Below the pieces are notes generated by a model, which was given only the letters and a program-made list of their open reading frames with translations, did not search any database and had not been told where the DNA came from. From a virus: DNA of 35,114 nt. Positions 15,414-35,114 of this stretch are shown piece by piece. Made by a program: the position numbers and the translations under genes. The stretch lies in IMG/VR virus record IMGVR_UViG_3300045135_001547, positions 1 to 35,114 of that record. One strand, written 5' to 3'. How positions within the stretch are numbered: position 1 is the first letter of the stretch; every line of letters starts with the position of its first letter.

Positions 15414-15736
15414 TGGCTGAATCAGACTTAAATTATCATGGTGATCCTGAAGCGGAGCGTATGACTTATCAGATCAGTTATGCAAAAGATGATTGGCGTG
15501 GCAGACTTGTTCTAAGTATCTTAGAAAAAGCCATTGGTGATTATCTTGCAAGAACGATTTCTAATAAGTTACGTAATGATGCAAAGGATTTTTTATACAA
15601 CGATAATCCTTTGTTTGAAGTGGCTATGGCTATACTCAATCAAGACCCTGATATGTTTCGTAAACAGCTAAATAAGATGCGTAAATTAAATCTTCCCTTT
15701 CAAAAGCGTTATGAATTTTCAGGGGAGCAACGATGA
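15413..15736 (+). CDS. Hypothetical protein, 107 aa
   Basis: The protein carries a pattern I have met in small phage proteins near recombination or methylase genes: an amphipathic helix ILEKAIGDYLARTISNKLRN, then DAKDFLYND..LFEVAMAILNQDPDMFRKQL. It looks like a short helical DNA- or RNA-interacting domain, but the family is not named here. It starts exactly where the frameshifted ERF ends (TAATG) and overlaps the methyltransferase ATG by 4 bp, so it is expressed between them. Confidence 0.65.
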   Translation: MAESDLNYHGDPEAERMTYQISYAKDDWRGRLVLSILEKAIGDYLARTISNKLRNDAKDFLYNDNPLFEVAMAILNQDPDMFRKQLNKMRKLNLPFQKRYEFSGEQR

Positions 15737-16926
15737 ATTATCTATCTGTATGTAGTGGCATTGAAGCAGCAACGGTGGCTTGGCATGACTTAGGTTGGAA
15801 GCCTGTTGCATTTTCTGAAATCGAAAAGTTTCCTAGTGAAGTATTGGCACATCGTTATCCCGGTGTGCCAAACCTAGGTGACATGACTAAATATAAGGAG
15901 TGGAATTTTGATCAATCAATTGAACTTGTTTGTGGAGGTACACCCTGTCAGTCCTTCTCAGTCGCTGGACTTAGGAAAGGACTCGAAGACCCAAGAGGCA
16001 ACCTTGCCCTTACCTTTTGTGGAATACTTGACAAGTTTAGACCCAAGTGGTTCGTTTGGGAAAACGTGCCAGGTGTCCTCAGTTCAGGAGGTGGACAAGA
16101 CTTTGGTAGCTTCCTCGGGGCGCTGGTTGAACTCGGGTATGGGTTCTCATATAGGGTGCTTGACGCTCAATACTTCGGAGTGGCCCAAAGACGAAGAAGA
16201 GTGTTTGTTGTCGGACACCTTGGAGACTGGAGACCTACCGCAGAAGTATTATTTGAGTCCGAAAGCTTGCAAAGGCATATTAAACCGAGCAGAAAATCGA
16301 GGCAAGAAGCTGCCTCCAAGCCTGAACGAAGCACTAAGCTACGTAGCAAATCAGGAATGATCCCTTTGCTACATCAAGATAAGATTGATGCTCTATGTGC
16401 AAGAGATTATAAAGGTTTAAATTCTGATAGCCTAGATAAGAAAGCCATTGTACATGTGGCAGATAAGTGTCCAACCATTACATCAAGTGCAAGTGGATAC
16501 AGTCGAGTAGGTAATGGTACAACTGAACATGAAACCTATGTTGCTCAAGCCTTTCATGCATCACAAGACCCTATTAGTGGTGAAGTATCACCCTGTTTAG
16601 GATCAACGAGTAAGATAGGTGTGGCTTATAATATTACATTTTGTGATGCGAATGGCACAAGAAAAGATAGGCCTAACGGTGGGTTGTATGTTAATGAAAC
16701 AGAAGTATCAAACACCATGACGCATGCGGGTGTTGGAACATATCAATTAGATATGGCTGTCAGAAGATTGACTCCGATTGAGTGCGAAAGATTACAAGGA
16801 TTTCCTGATGGTTATACTAATATCAAAAACAACTGTCCTGATGGGCCAAGATACAAAGCATTAGGAAATAGTATGGCTGTGCCTGTGATGAAGTGGATTG
16901 GAAAAAGAATAGAGGCTCAAGGATGA
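15733..16926 (+). CDS. C5 cytosine DNA methyltransferase
   Basis: The 397-residue enzyme contains all key motifs: I (LSVCSGIEAATVAWHDLGW), IV with catalytic Cys72 (GGTPCQSFSVAG), VI (WENVPG, Glu110-Asn111-Val112), VIII (AQRRRRVFVVG), IX (RRLTPIECERLQGFPDGY, about 344-362) and X (YKALGNSMAVPVMKW). It transfers methyl groups from SAM to cytosine in a specific DNA site, probably protecting phage DNA from host restriction. The target-recognition part lies between VIII and IX. No matching nuclease is present, so it is an orphan enzyme. Residues about 59-209 are double-coding with the ORF at 15908-16360. Confidence 0.95.
   Translation: MNYLSVCSGIEAATVAWHDLGWKPVAFSEIEKFPSEVLAHRYPGVPNLGDMTKYKEWNFDQSIELVCGGTPCQSFSVAGLRKGLEDPRGNLALTFCGILDKFRPKWFVWENVPGVLSSGGGQDFGSFLGALVELGYGFSYRVLDAQYFGVAQRRRRVFVVGHLGDWRPTAEVLFESESLQRHIKPSRKSRQEAASKPERSTKLRSKSGMIPLLHQDKIDALCARDYKGLNSDSLDKKAIVHVADKCPTITSSASGYSRVGNGTTEHETYVAQAFHASQDPISGEVSPCLGSTSKIGVAYNITFCDANGTRKDRPNGGLYVNETEVSNTMTHAGVGTYQLDMAVRRLTPIECERLQGFPDGYTNIKNNCPDGPRYKALGNSMAVPVMKWIGKRIEAQG
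15908..16360 (+). CDS. Overlapping ORF inside the methyltransferase gene, conserved-looking
   Basis: A 150-codon frame lies in a different phase wholly within the methyltransferase gene. It has features I recall from separately annotated phage proteins: SLDPSGSFGKTCQVSSVQEV, SSGRWLNSGMGS, LNTSEWPKDEEECLLSDTLE and TGDLPQKYYLSPKACKGILN followed by RAENRGKKLPPSLNEAL. The start (TTG 15908) is uncertain; no strong ribosome site is seen. It may be a true overprinted gene or a by-product of strong methyltransferase conservation. Function is unknown. Confidence 0.5.
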   Translation: MINQLNLFVEVHPVSPSQSLDLGKDSKTQEATLPLPFVEYLTSLDPSGSFGKTCQVSSVQEVDKTLVASSGRWLNSGMGSHIGCLTLNTSEWPKDEEECLLSDTLETGDLPQKYYLSPKACKGILNRAENRGKKLPPSLNEALSYVANQE

Positions 16927-16937
16927 GCCTCATTCAA

Positions 16938-17009
16938 TTACTTATTGCATACGTACATTGTGACTTCGAAACCGAAACGCATTTCAGTAGCTGATGGTGT
17001 TGACCACAT
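16938..17009 (-). CDS. pqqA: PqqA, pyrroloquinoline quinone precursor peptide
   Basis: The 23-residue peptide begins MWSTPSATEMRFG and ends FEVTMYVCNK. Length, Met1-Trp2, Pro5, Arg11-x-Gly13, the Glu15-Val-Thr-x-Tyr19 core and the Asn-Lys end all fit bacterial PqqA. Glu15 and Tyr19 are the residues that PqqE (with PqqD) cross-links and that become PQQ after PqqF/PqqB/PqqC action. AGGAG lies 7 nt before the ATG. It is on the minus strand in the 142-bp gap between two rightward genes, downstream of the leftward late arm. No other pqq gene is present, so host enzymes must process it. Confidence is very high for identity, inferential for use. Confidence 0.93.
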   Translation of the reverse strand: MWSTPSATEMRFGFEVTMYVCNK

Positions 17010-17068
17010 AACCTGTCTCCTATTAATAGTGTTTGTCAAGATTGTATGATAAAAATTTTAGGGATAAA

Positions 17069-17278
17069 ATGAATCAAGATTTGTATGAGTTAAGACTAAT
17101 GATATATCCTGATCACCACTATGTTGTATTCGATGGCTTTGGCGATAGCCTTCGATCCTTTTCAACCTATGATTTAGCAGAAGAGTTCGTAAGAATTAGA
17201 CCTGATTGTCAGATTGTAGAGATAAAACCTCTAACCAATGAAGAATTTACTGCTATTCATGGTGAACCCCCCTTCTGA
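17069..17278 (+). CDS. Hypothetical protein, 69 aa
   Basis: ATG 17069 follows TTTTAGGGATAAA, a reasonable ribosome site; the in-frame TTG at 17033 lacks one. The protein contains LRLMIYPDHHYVVFDGFGDS and YDLAEEFVRIRPDCQIVEIK, suggesting a small alpha/beta fold. I know no family for it. It is the last rightward gene, separated from the methyltransferase by the pqqA gap, and a hairpin follows its stop. It might be an early regulatory or accessory protein, but nothing in the sequence decides. Confidence 0.6.
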   Translation: MNQDLYELRLMIYPDHHYVVFDGFGDSLRSFSTYDLAEEFVRIRPDCQIVEIKPLTNEEFTAIHGEPPF

Positions 17279-17371: not shown

Positions 17372-17599
17372 TCATTTTTTAGATCGAACGTACAAAACAG
17401 GACGATTATGGTCAATGTACTTATATTCGTGTTTAAAATCTTCAGGTAAGTTAATAAAGTCTTCGTGCATACAAATCGTACGTAGATCAGCGATGAAATT
17501 TTTCTCAGCATAGGCATGTGCGACTTCACAATTTAAGAATGTACCTACGTATTGTGGTTCGCCACCCATCATAATGAGTAAAACGAAATGGAGTTCCAT
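17372..17599 (-). CDS. Hypothetical protein, 75 aa
   Basis: This small soluble protein begins MELHFVLLIMMGGEPQYVGT, a strand-rich start, followed by a helix CEVAHAYAEKNF and an RTICMHEDFINLPEDF segment. The shape recalls tiny ferredoxin-like phage proteins, but no family is recognised. It overlaps the upstream 98-residue gene by one base (TAATG) and ends the leftward arm, about 90 bp from the convergent hairpin and 360 bp before pqqA on the same strand. Confidence 0.65.
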   Translation of the reverse strand: MELHFVLLIMMGGEPQYVGTFLNCEVAHAYAEKNFIADLRTICMHEDFINLPEDFKHEYKYIDHNRPVLYVRSKK

Positions 17600-17895
17600 T
17601 AATGTACCTTGTCAGGCTTTGGCTCGACTAGGTAAAGGTCAGCACCGTCACAATGGATAATAAGAAAATGATCTTCTTTATCTGAGAATATAATCTTGAT
17701 CATTGATTGGCTATCGGATTCTAGAAACTCGATGTTCCAAATCTTCTTGCCAACCAATGTGTCAAGTAACTTAGCCTGATTTTCATCAGCCTCGGTTATA
17801 AACTCTACGTCTAAACTATCTTCCCTATCCAATCTCCACCGTCCTTTAATACCATTGGCATTAGTTTTGGTTGTCCTTCTATTATCATACCACAA
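17599..17895 (-). CDS. Hypothetical protein, up to 98 aa
   Basis: The ATG at 17895 would make the gene overlap the metallophosphoesterase by 85 bp. An in-frame TTG at 17832 behind AGGACGGTGGAGA would shorten it to 77 residues and the overlap to 22 bp, which is more plausible. The common part (DSLDVEFITEADENQAKLLD, then GKKIWNIEFLE and FSDKEDHFLIIHCDGADLYL) looks like a small beta-sheet protein. No family is recognised. The gene is followed by a one-base-overlapping small gene at the end of the late arm. Confidence 0.6.
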   Translation of the reverse strand: MWYDNRRTTKTNANGIKGRWRLDREDSLDVEFITEADENQAKLLDTLVGKKIWNIEFLESDSQSMIKIIFSDKEDHFLIIHCDGADLYLVEPKPDKVH

Positions 17896-18518
17896 CCAAC
17901 GATGAATCTTGTTTTAAAGTTCTTAGCATACTCAAATGCAAGTGACTTCTGATTGATAAGACTACCTACTTGCATACCCCAGATCAACGCATCAGGGTTA
18001 GAGTAGTAACCGATAGAGAACTTGGTATGGTAGTGGCCCTGAACGGTATTCATACCATACTGCTGTGCCACACGTAATACATCTGCAGCAAGACCATGCG
18101 TAAAGAAGCATCGTGAATTATCAGACAAGGTAATGCGTAGGTCATCAACCCATTGCCAACCTTTGCCGACATTCAGATACTCATTGTAAGAGCGTAAGTA
18201 TTCCTTGGGTAATCCATACTTCAACGCACGTCTAAAGACTAAGGAGGAGTGGTTGGAGTGTACTAGGAACATCCTAGGAAAAATTTTTTCTAACTCTTTG
18301 ATATACAAACGAGACGATTTCAACTCATCCCCGGCTGACATGAGATCAGGGTTATGATCATGCATGCTGATGGCATGCTGATCTAACTCATCGCCAATGT
18401 TAACCACGAGGTCAGGCTTATATTTATTTTTAAGTGCCGCTAGAAATTTGAATGCGTCTTTGTGATGGTAAGGGATGTGGAGGTCTGATATAACAAGTAC
18501 CGATTTATATTTAGTCAT
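17811..18518 (-). CDS. Calcineurin-like metallophosphoesterase
   Basis: ATG 18518 is chosen because GAGGATATGT precedes it; the longer reading begins at a GTG without a site. The 235-residue protein has the two-metal motifs: Asp12-Leu-His14 (ISDLHIPYHH), GDELDQ with Asp43, SNH (Asn89-His90, where most relatives have GNH), His141 and GHYH (His162, His164). It would hydrolyse phosphate esters; the substrate is unknown and may be nucleotide or nucleic acid. It lies after the lysis genes. Similar enzymes are common in phages with unclear roles. Confidence 0.88.
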   Translation of the reverse strand: MTKYKSVLVISDLHIPYHHKDAFKFLAALKNKYKPDLVVNIGDELDQHAISMHDHNPDLMSAGDELKSSRLYIKELEKIFPRMFLVHSNHSSLVFRRALKYGLPKEYLRSYNEYLNVGKGWQWVDDLRITLSDNSRCFFTHGLAADVLRVAQQYGMNTVQGHYHTKFSIGYYSNPDALIWGMQVGSLINQKSLAFEYAKNFKTRFIVGCGMIIEGQPKLMPMVLKDGGDWIGKIV

Positions 18519-18560
18519 ACATATCCTCACATAAGTTTACCTTATAAGGATATCATATAT

Positions 18561-19780: not shown

Positions 19781-20893
19781 CTATTTAAAATATGGGCCAA
19801 CCATCCATGTCACCACAGAATACCTAACCCCTTTAGTTACTGGCTCTACGCCATGCACCATGTATGAAGGAAATACTAGCACAGTTCCAGCTTTTTGTGG
19901 AGGATAAAATGCTGTTCCAGCTGCATTAAGAAAAAATTTTCCACCCTCAAAATCATCATTCAAAAAAGCCAAAGCCGTGAGTTTCCTAGTCTCATCGGTG
20001 TGCATGTGAAATGTATCAACGTGCGGAGTGTAATGTCCGTCTGGTTCATACATTAAAAACTCTGTTTGGTTGCTATGTGTAATGTTATATTGCCACCAAT
20101 AGTGGTTAGCATTAAGTGCGGTTGATGTCAGTATGCCACCAATACCTTGGTTCTGTGGCAACATCAAACGCTTAACATCACGTATCTCTTTATCAACTGT
20201 GCCTTCATCTCCACCACCAATGACGGGATCAAGTTTGTCATGTTCTTCTTTACTGTATTCAGTAATAATATTCTGACAGAATGATGTGGTTAGATGTGAT
20301 TCAAATACAGCACAATCTGTTAATACTCTCTGAGTTTGTTGATGCGCTTTAGGCTTACCTAATGCTTCTCTGCCATCATACTTCTCATCTTTGTGTGGCC
20401 CATTAGCATCCACATAATGTAAGAATACTTGTGCTTGCCATTCACCTTGCGTGTATTCACCACGCCAATGCTCGACTTCTTGTCCACGATACAGCACAGC
20501 ATCACCGACTTTCATATTGACTGCATGCCCATCCATAAAGATAGGCCACACCTTACCATCAAAGCCAAGCGTAACTGTCGCACTAATCTCACAGGCTGGT
20601 CGATCAGTATGCTTTTTTAATTCCTCACCTGGAGCATATAGCCTAGCGTATGAGTAAGTAGGTAATAACTTAAGTCCACTTGCCGTTTCAAAGTGAGGTA
20701 ATAAATCTTCTAATAACTTGTCAAATGTAGCATGCCCATGCACGGCTTGTGACTTTGGGCATTGAATATCTTTTTCTGTTAAACCATCCTTAACAGCTTG
20801 CTTTAGTATTTGTGTCAGCTCTGCACAATTCTGATCATCTAAAAAATCTTTGAGGTGAACGTATTTGTGAGCAGCAAATTGCTCAGCAGTCAT
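19781..20893 (-). CDS. Tandem 2OG-Fe(II) oxygenase
   Basis: The 370-residue protein seems to have two double-stranded beta-helix domains. The C-terminal one is classic prolyl-hydroxylase type: PHVDTF (His291, Asp293), PSYMVHGVEPV (His347) and KGVRYSVVTWM (Arg357 for 2-oxoglutarate). The N-terminal one has YSYARLYAPGEELKKHTDRP (His95, Asp97) and EVEHWRG (His142), but I see no matching arginine. Such enzymes hydroxylate protein or small-molecule substrates with O2. In other phages they sit beside tail-fibre genes, as here, possibly modifying fibres or host targets; that role is inference. Confidence 0.85.
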   Translation of the reverse strand: MTAEQFAAHKYVHLKDFLDDQNCAELTQILKQAVKDGLTEKDIQCPKSQAVHGHATFDKLLEDLLPHFETASGLKLLPTYSYARLYAPGEELKKHTDRPACEISATVTLGFDGKVWPIFMDGHAVNMKVGDAVLYRGQEVEHWRGEYTQGEWQAQVFLHYVDANGPHKDEKYDGREALGKPKAHQQTQRVLTDCAVFESHLTTSFCQNIITEYSKEEHDKLDPVIGGGDEGTVDKEIRDVKRLMLPQNQGIGGILTSTALNANHYWWQYNITHSNQTEFLMYEPDGHYTPHVDTFHMHTDETRKLTALAFLNDDFEGGKFFLNAAGTAFYPPQKAGTVLVFPSYMVHGVEPVTKGVRYSVVTWMVGPYFK

Positions 20894-34399: not shown

Positions 34400-35114
34400 T
34401 TAAGATTCACGACATGTGAGTTTAACAATACCCTCGTCATCAATAGCAACTGCGTTAGCAGAAAGAATTGTATTCACAAGGAATGAAGTCTTTTCTGGTA
34501 CATAGTTGATTTCTGTACGAGGAGCGATACCTTCAGCGTAACCTACTGCTTGTTTGTGGAATGCAAATAAGCTACGGTCAAGAGAACCGTCAACTGCTAA
34601 ACCACCTTCAGTACGATCACCAAGTACATGGAAGTTGAAACCTAAGAATGTATTGATTTCGCCTTGTACTAAAGCTTTGATTGTATTGAAGTCAGATGAA
34701 GTTACTGCTGTTTCAGCAAGTAATGATGCTAAAGAGTTAGCATGGATAACCATATGACGATCTGTTGGAGGAACGTTATTTTTATCCATGAGTTTTTTAG
34801 CTTCACGTAATTTTGCTACGTTTAAGTTTGTGTCAGTACCACCAATATCATTAGAAACTGTTAATGAAGTTGATGATGCTGTTAATGCATCAAGAATAAG
34901 TTGATCTTGTCTACGACCGATTGCGTTCGCTAAAACTTGAACGAGTTCTTGTCTTTCGTCAAAATTAACTTTTTGTTGCATAAAAATATCAGAATACTCT
35001 GCAGCATTCCAATCTTGTAGTGTTACAGATACTTGTGAGAAATCCACATTAAGAGGTGTAACGTCAGTTTGTGGCACACGAAGTGTAGCCGCGCCTTTAC
35101 CTACTTTAGGAAAT
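34400..35114 (-). CDS. Major capsid protein, C-terminal part (continues past window end)
   Basis: This is the same capsid gene seen from the other end of the linearised circle. The frame is open from the window edge to the stop at 34400. The Met at 35077 is internal, because the upstream codons match the N-terminal copy at 1-152. The protein would assemble into the icosahedral shell on the scaffold encoded at 460-1260. The segment ends in an ordinary mixed alpha/beta region (VAIDDEGIVKLTCRES). The 88-residue gene begins 17 bp downstream. Capsid identity is inferred from context and from general likeness to capsid proteins of T7-like marine podoviruses. Confidence 0.85.
   Translation of the reverse strand, partial: FPKVGKGAATLRVPQTDVTPLNVDFSQVSVTLQDWNAAEYSDIFMQQKVNFDERQELVQVLANAIGRRQDQLILDALTASSTSLTVSNDIGGTDTNLNVAKLREAKKLMDKNNVPPTDRHMVIHANSLASLLAETAVTSSDFNTIKALVQGEINTFLGFNFHVLGDRTEGGLAVDGSLDRSLFAFHKQAVGYAEGIAPRTEINYVPEKTSFLVNTILSANAVAIDDEGIVKLTCRES
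34963..35114. repeat. 152-bp terminal redundancy with bases 1-152
   Basis: Bases 34963-35114 repeat bases 1-152 with two differences, a/g opposite positions 23 and 26. Both fall at third codon positions of the minus-strand capsid gene (GAC/GAT and ATC/ATT) and leave Asp and Ile unchanged. The overlap lies inside a gene and joins it in frame. It therefore most likely marks a circular or circularly permuted genome cut arbitrarily during assembly, not a packaged direct terminal repeat. Confidence 0.9.

Follow-up and report, generated by a model that had tools for sequence, protein, structure and literature searches.

Lone pqqA, encoding the precursor peptide of PQQ, in a small MEP301-like phage and in phages of Methylophilales

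The sequence analysed here, referred to as the window, is the whole 35,114-nucleotide stretch of IMG/VR record IMGVR_UViG_3300045135_001547, the phage character of which is seen in the terminase, head-tail adaptor, endolysin and other proteins that it encodes. The same protein stretch (FPKVGKGAATL...FMQQKVN) is found at both ends, at 2-280 and 34400-35113 (minus strand); this repetition points to a short direct terminal repeat, and the genome thus appears complete and circularly closed. Towards its middle, close to where two gene blocks converge, lies a 23-codon gene for the precursor peptide PqqA, with the following features in and around it:

15733..16926, plus strand: C-5 cytosine DNA methyltransferase gene, a neighbour that is convergent with pqqA
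16912..16931, no strand assigned: hairpin GAGGCTCA-TCCT-TGAGCCTC followed by a T-run (as read on the minus strand), predicted terminator of pqqA
16938..17009, minus strand: pqqA, PQQ precursor peptide PqqA, 23 codons, identified by model matches and by conservation in relatives
16953..16955, minus strand: codon TAC of Tyr19, one of the two PQQ-forming residues, Tyr in 180 of 180 viral peptides
16965..16967, minus strand: codon GAA of Glu15, the other PQQ-forming residue, Glu in 180 of 180 viral peptides
17017..17021, minus strand: Shine-Dalgarno sequence AGGAG, 7 nt 5' of the ATG
17041..17046, minus strand: candidate -10 element TACAAT, ~37 nt 5' of the ATG, weak and with no matching -35 element
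17069..17278, plus strand: gene for a hypothetical protein of 69 aa without a family match, a neighbour and the last rightward gene
17811..18530, minus strand: calcineurin-like phosphoesterase gene, the syntenic anchor for sampling independently of pqqA

Translation of 16938-17009 from the minus strand gives MWSTPSATEMRFGFEVTMYVCNK, followed by a stop codon. The original prediction had recognised PqqA in this peptide by M1, W2, P5, R11, G13, E15-V-T-x-Y19 and N22 and by an AGGAG 7 nt upstream of the ATG; each of these residues stands at its predicted position, the AGGAG is found at 17021-17017, and the glutamate and tyrosine that form PQQ have the E-x-x-x-Y spacing (E15, Y19). The identification is upheld by both curated models, the peptide scoring 42.3 bits against NCBIfam PqqA (TIGR02107, an equivalog model; cut-off 20, E 4.4e-11) and 39.5 bits against Pfam PqqA (PF08042; cut-off 21.1, E 5e-10). 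When the complete 35-kb record was searched in all six frames with the PqqA model, this was the single match (E 2.4e-11), and the model had zero matches in 14 control genomes. PHROGs has no family for the peptide, and neither the window nor the peptide matched any PDB sequence. A chance ORF is ruled out by the model scores, by the coding constraint described below and by a clear score gap, since among the related contigs of the anchored sample no true copy scores below 42 bits (42-69) and no next-best frame above 8.9. On its sequence, the identity of the window gene as pqqA is near certain.

The gene had also been predicted to lie antisense to the local genes, which holds for its two immediate neighbours but not for the leftward genes, which resume at 17372 and share its strand. 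The hairpin past the stop codon (16931-16912, with its T-run) is bidirectional, and the terminator may possibly serve the rightward methyltransferase gene as well. Similar signals accompany other copies, with a Shine-Dalgarno-like site 5' of 125 of 126 viral pqqA genes and terminators 3' of 53 of the 116 viral genes compared (shuffled sequence: 8) and of 105 of 127 host copies (shuffled: 13). Upstream of the viral copies TATAAT is present in 66 of 147 cases, where shuffles give ~25, and GTATAATT in 31, where they give 0.6, mostly 31-60 nt 5' of the start. A full -35/-10 pattern was seen upstream of 2 of 146 viral copies, which is no enrichment, and a sigma-70 promoter search gave nothing above chance, TACAAT being all that the window has at this place. 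We read viral pqqA as what would be a small self-contained transcription unit.

A tblastn search of 50,697 phage records identified convincing pqqA genes in P19250A, Venkman, MEP301, MEP401, MEP402, four Melnitz strains and the uncultured ctXG6705. All nine Methylophilales/Methylophilaceae phage isolate records that were checked carry the gene, a count that is small, includes the four Melnitz strains, excludes the later isolates MEP431-434 and Venkman EXVC038S, and could have let a pqqA-free Methylophilales isolate escape notice. None of the ten carrier records bears a pqqA label: five small-phage records have no annotated feature at the match, whilst in ctXG6705 and the inspected Melnitz record an unrelated hypothetical ORF lies antisense over it, which bears out the warning that gene callers would tend to overlook such a gene. 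Probes of the Methylobacterium and Pseudomonas types of PqqA added no further phages. A match in a gut phage record (E 5) was too weak to convince. Another, under the name 'Acinetobacter phage MD-2021a', was rejected as the inspected record is bacterial DNA in which pqqBCD, a radical SAM gene and ppk adjoin the match; this entry, CAKLQF020000010.1, is chromosomal (pqqBCD, ppk, fur) and its label looks wrong, and the same pqqA match is found in CAKLQH020000055.1, which is labelled likewise.

By terminase, the carriers group as the window with MEP301 (88.6% identical), Venkman with ctXG6705 (73.7%), P19250A, and MEP401 with MEP402. Melnitz is a T4-type myophage (PMC9004378), and in all the carriers make up about five lineages, the terminases of which are unrelated. 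Among the phage records pqqA was confined to phages of Methylophilales hosts, and no terminase relative on another host (Pelagibacter, Vibrio and others) was among the carriers. As the terminases of the carriers are unrelated and their terminase relatives on other hosts are free of pqqA, carriage tracks the host and not phage ancestry, and repeated acquisition is thereby implied.

Among metagenomic viruses, a scan with the fixed motif EMRFGFEVTMY found it in at least 120 IMG/VR contigs, which are partly near-duplicates. Of those listed, 93 of 120 encode at least one protein shared with the compared phage genomes; this sharing, together with the presence of pqqA in sequenced isolates, rejects host contamination as its source. 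The predicted absence of pqq enzymes was found to be correct: no significant match to PqqB-E was obtained in the window, in five phage genomes or in the fetched DNA of the 120 listed IMG/VR loci, no PqqE above the cut-off was present in 48 viral records, and the window has no complete pqqABCDE cluster, in which pqqB-E would adjoin pqqA.

A second sample, anchored on the phosphoesterase gene of the window, was blind to pqqA. The gene is present in 55 of its 80 contigs, in all cases on the same strand and downstream of the anchor, and in 40 of the 40 that extend for more than 4,846 bp downstream; in two apparent negatives (L320 and L347) a copy is located in another part of the record. The sample includes near-identical contigs and comprises 36 distinct coding sequences. 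Two near-complete relatives that were found by terminase, G114 (88% identical) and G117 (87%), lack pqqA where synteny would place it, between the phosphoesterase and ERF genes. Since these close relatives are without it, pqqA is not essential, and in the wider phage group the gene appears, on the genomes compared, to be common yet dispensable rather than universal.

The original prediction turned, furthermore, on the frame and on Glu15 and Tyr19 being kept in related phages, and all 180 complete viral peptides retain them. As the first scan had fixed the motif, selection was recomputed on the phosphoesterase-anchored contigs, in which pS is 0.507 and pN is 0.068 (pN/pS ~0.13) and the diversity at codon positions 1, 2 and 3 is 0.07, 0.06 and 0.31. 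The comparison with Methylophilales that had been proposed gave Methylophilales phages and hosts as the best matches. The window peptide is two residues apart from a PqqA of OM43 strain LSUCC0665, which also has the closest host DNA, and that of P19250A, MWTTPAATEMRFGFEVTMYVMNK, is the commonest Methylophilaceae PqqA (53 of 127 host copies). Host-identical coding sequences account for 2 of the 115 distinct viral ones.

These data bear on several other explanations. A bidirectional hairpin adjoining the gene, and a location close to where two gene blocks run towards each other, might suggest that the element acts as DNA or RNA, be it as a terminator between converging operons, as an antisense RNA or as recombination homology with host pqqA; however, variation falls chiefly on third codon positions (0.31 as against 0.06-0.07), 6 of 69 bases separate the gene from even the closest host DNA, and neither the window nor the peptide matches Rfam, so that we consider this the least probable of the alternatives. 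Capture of so short a gene from the many scattered host copies should be easy, and two relatives are without it, as might be expected of a neutral passenger that is often taken up from multi-copy host genes and confers no benefit. The substitution pattern, with synonymous sites strongly diverged and the protein constant, largely refutes such a passenger, and its presence in every sufficiently long anchored contig and its recurrence in phages that are unrelated but share a host group also make this highly improbable. A lone peptide, carried with no enzymes, could also compete with host PqqA, acting as a decoy that occupies PqqD/PqqE, lowers PQQ and halts methanol oxidation in the favour of the phage. 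Loss of Glu15/Tyr19 or drift away from the host would then be expected, whereas both residues are kept in 180 of 180 peptides and host PqqA is matched exactly by some of the phage peptides; a decoy is thus most unlikely.

The RiPP precursor PqqA is spent one-for-one, whilst PqqB-E are catalysts, and the product of xoxF is a PQQ enzyme. The pqqA gene was present in all 80 genomes of a Methylophilaceae sample, at 1-12 copies each; the 1.3-Mb genome of LSUCC0665 has three copies, two of them in tandem, and encodes one PqqE above the cut-off far from them. Methylophilaceae have been reported to combine several pqqA copies with a single pqqBCDE set (PMC4109929), the copies differ in expression in a methylotroph production strain (PMC9851590), and in OM43 no transcript is as abundant as that of xoxF (PMC5120137).

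Taken with this host biology, it is quite probable that phage pqqA is a substrate-only auxiliary metabolic gene which would sustain host methanol dehydrogenase during infection. From the identity, conservation, constraint and distribution of the gene and from the host pathway we infer its expression, processing and benefit, which may be pictured as follows. A phage that shuts off host transcription would starve the PQQ pathway of substrate first, and from its self-contained mini-gene it would express additional copies of the 23-residue precursor. Host PqqD/PqqE would bind this peptide and cross-link Glu15 to Tyr19, host proteases together with PqqB/PqqC would complete PQQ, and the cofactor would load the host methanol dehydrogenase XoxF, allowing methanol oxidation, with the energy and carbon that it provides, to persist despite the transcription shutdown. 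The catalytic enzymes would persist in the cell and need no supply from the phage, the substrate alone being the economical remedy. Supply of only what is consumed would explain the absence of pqqB-E from the phages, and it matches the host strategy of multiplying pqqA alone.

This role should nevertheless be considered with caution. XoxF with bound PQQ may outlast the lytic cycle, in which case new PQQ might not be limiting; any benefit of pqqA is not absolute, as the two near-complete relatives with terminases 87-88% identical do without it; and it also counts against the role that the window has no good promoter match and that a terminator is present at only about half of the viral copies. 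Alternative fates are conceivable for a RiPP precursor, and the peptide might be kept for some other PqqD/PqqE-derived product or signal and not for cofactor supply. No result points to one, and since phage and host PqqA are the same peptide, an identical product should be expected from the host enzymes, which leaves this alternative with a very small probability. As to precursor supply, we lean, with some reserve, towards the broader view that lone pqqA is near-universal and independently acquired in Methylophilales phages, that supply of the precursor is the metabolic bottleneck common to infections of these methylotrophs, which the phages would meet with nothing but the consumed substrate of a host RiPP pathway, and that such genes form a substrate-only class of auxiliary genes too short for ordinary gene callers.

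The phage gene resembles bacterial PqqA (TIGR02107, PF08042), especially the stand-alone Methylophilaceae copies, in its 23 residues, the Glu/Tyr pair and the leader residues, in the small-gene anatomy with a Shine-Dalgarno sequence and terminator, and in passing the family cut-offs; it differs in that the phage copies come without pqqBCDE and their DNA has diverged from that of the host copies. A host-type metabolic gene on genuine phage genomes, sequenced isolates included, is a putative auxiliary gene, and viral pqqA in itself is not new. It has been tied to Methylophilaceae in the Lake Baikal T4-like virus VP_266, with support of methanol oxidation proposed (PMC7678222), but VP_266 also carries methanol dehydrogenase, whereas the window and most related records have pqqA without that enzyme, and the window belongs to a small MEP301-like phage and not to a T4-like one. 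In reservoir sediments viral pqqA, pqqD and pqqE have been listed as auxiliary genes and framed as phosphate-solubilising (PMC13188868), with no link there to methylophages or to lone pqqA. MEP301 (MW452941), the nearest isolate by its terminase, likewise has pqqA opposite the early genes and between the ERF gene and the phosphoesterase gene; it differs in that its pqqA is unannotated and that only the window has the extra DNA methyltransferase gene beside it. Papers on OM43 and LD28 phages that deal with auxiliary genes or gene content do not mention pqqA (PMC8024684, PMC9004378, PMC10580990, PMC8163748), but the deposited genomes do contain it. Viral pqqA was therefore known previously, whilst its lone, substrate-only form across unrelated methylophages seems to be undescribed in the open-access literature.

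If the role is confirmed, methanol oxidation via XoxF would be the metabolic step that these phages guard, a single 72-base gene would let a phage steer a cofactor pathway, and pqqA would be a metagenomic marker for methylophages. Isolated phage-host pairs are available and direct testing is therefore possible. The finding also argues for micro-peptide searches of phage genomes without a length cut-off.

Several further observations were made on the IMG/VR records. In the 72-kb record of contig L041 (G094), which resembles the Lake Baikal methylophages, pqqA is accompanied by a PQQ-dependent alcohol dehydrogenase at 34049-35731 (608 bits over the joined frame), this being the one record of the 33 viral ones searched with a methanol-dehydrogenase-type gene. 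A different PqqA (23 letters, with /R as a variant) is found in L517, L518, L530, L534, L549, L553, L566, L572, L574, L584, L592 and others, and in L549 structural-looking phage genes adjoin it. The second of the PqqA patterns gave false positives in L519-L521, L526-L528, L533 and others, where it picks up another viral protein that shares the motif SLGIEVTVYS. An enterobacterial-type PqqA, MWKKPAFIDMRLGLEVTLYISNR, in L525, L532, L546, L552, L559, L575, L580, L582 and L590 lies mostly a few hundred bases from one end of the stretch, with no adjoining pqqB, and possibly marks prophages integrated beside host pqqA. The 265,895-base contig L604 and L605, from one sample, have a Methylobacterium-type PqqA (MKWSAPIVQEVCVGMEVTSY...EIDTFN) with no PqqB-E nearby and no PqqE above the cut-off; large phage or host DNA are both possible. 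The window itself has a further candidate auxiliary gene at 19781-20893; its 370-aa product contains a 2OG-Fe(II) oxygenase domain (Pfam PF13640), and its relatives are widespread among viral contigs.
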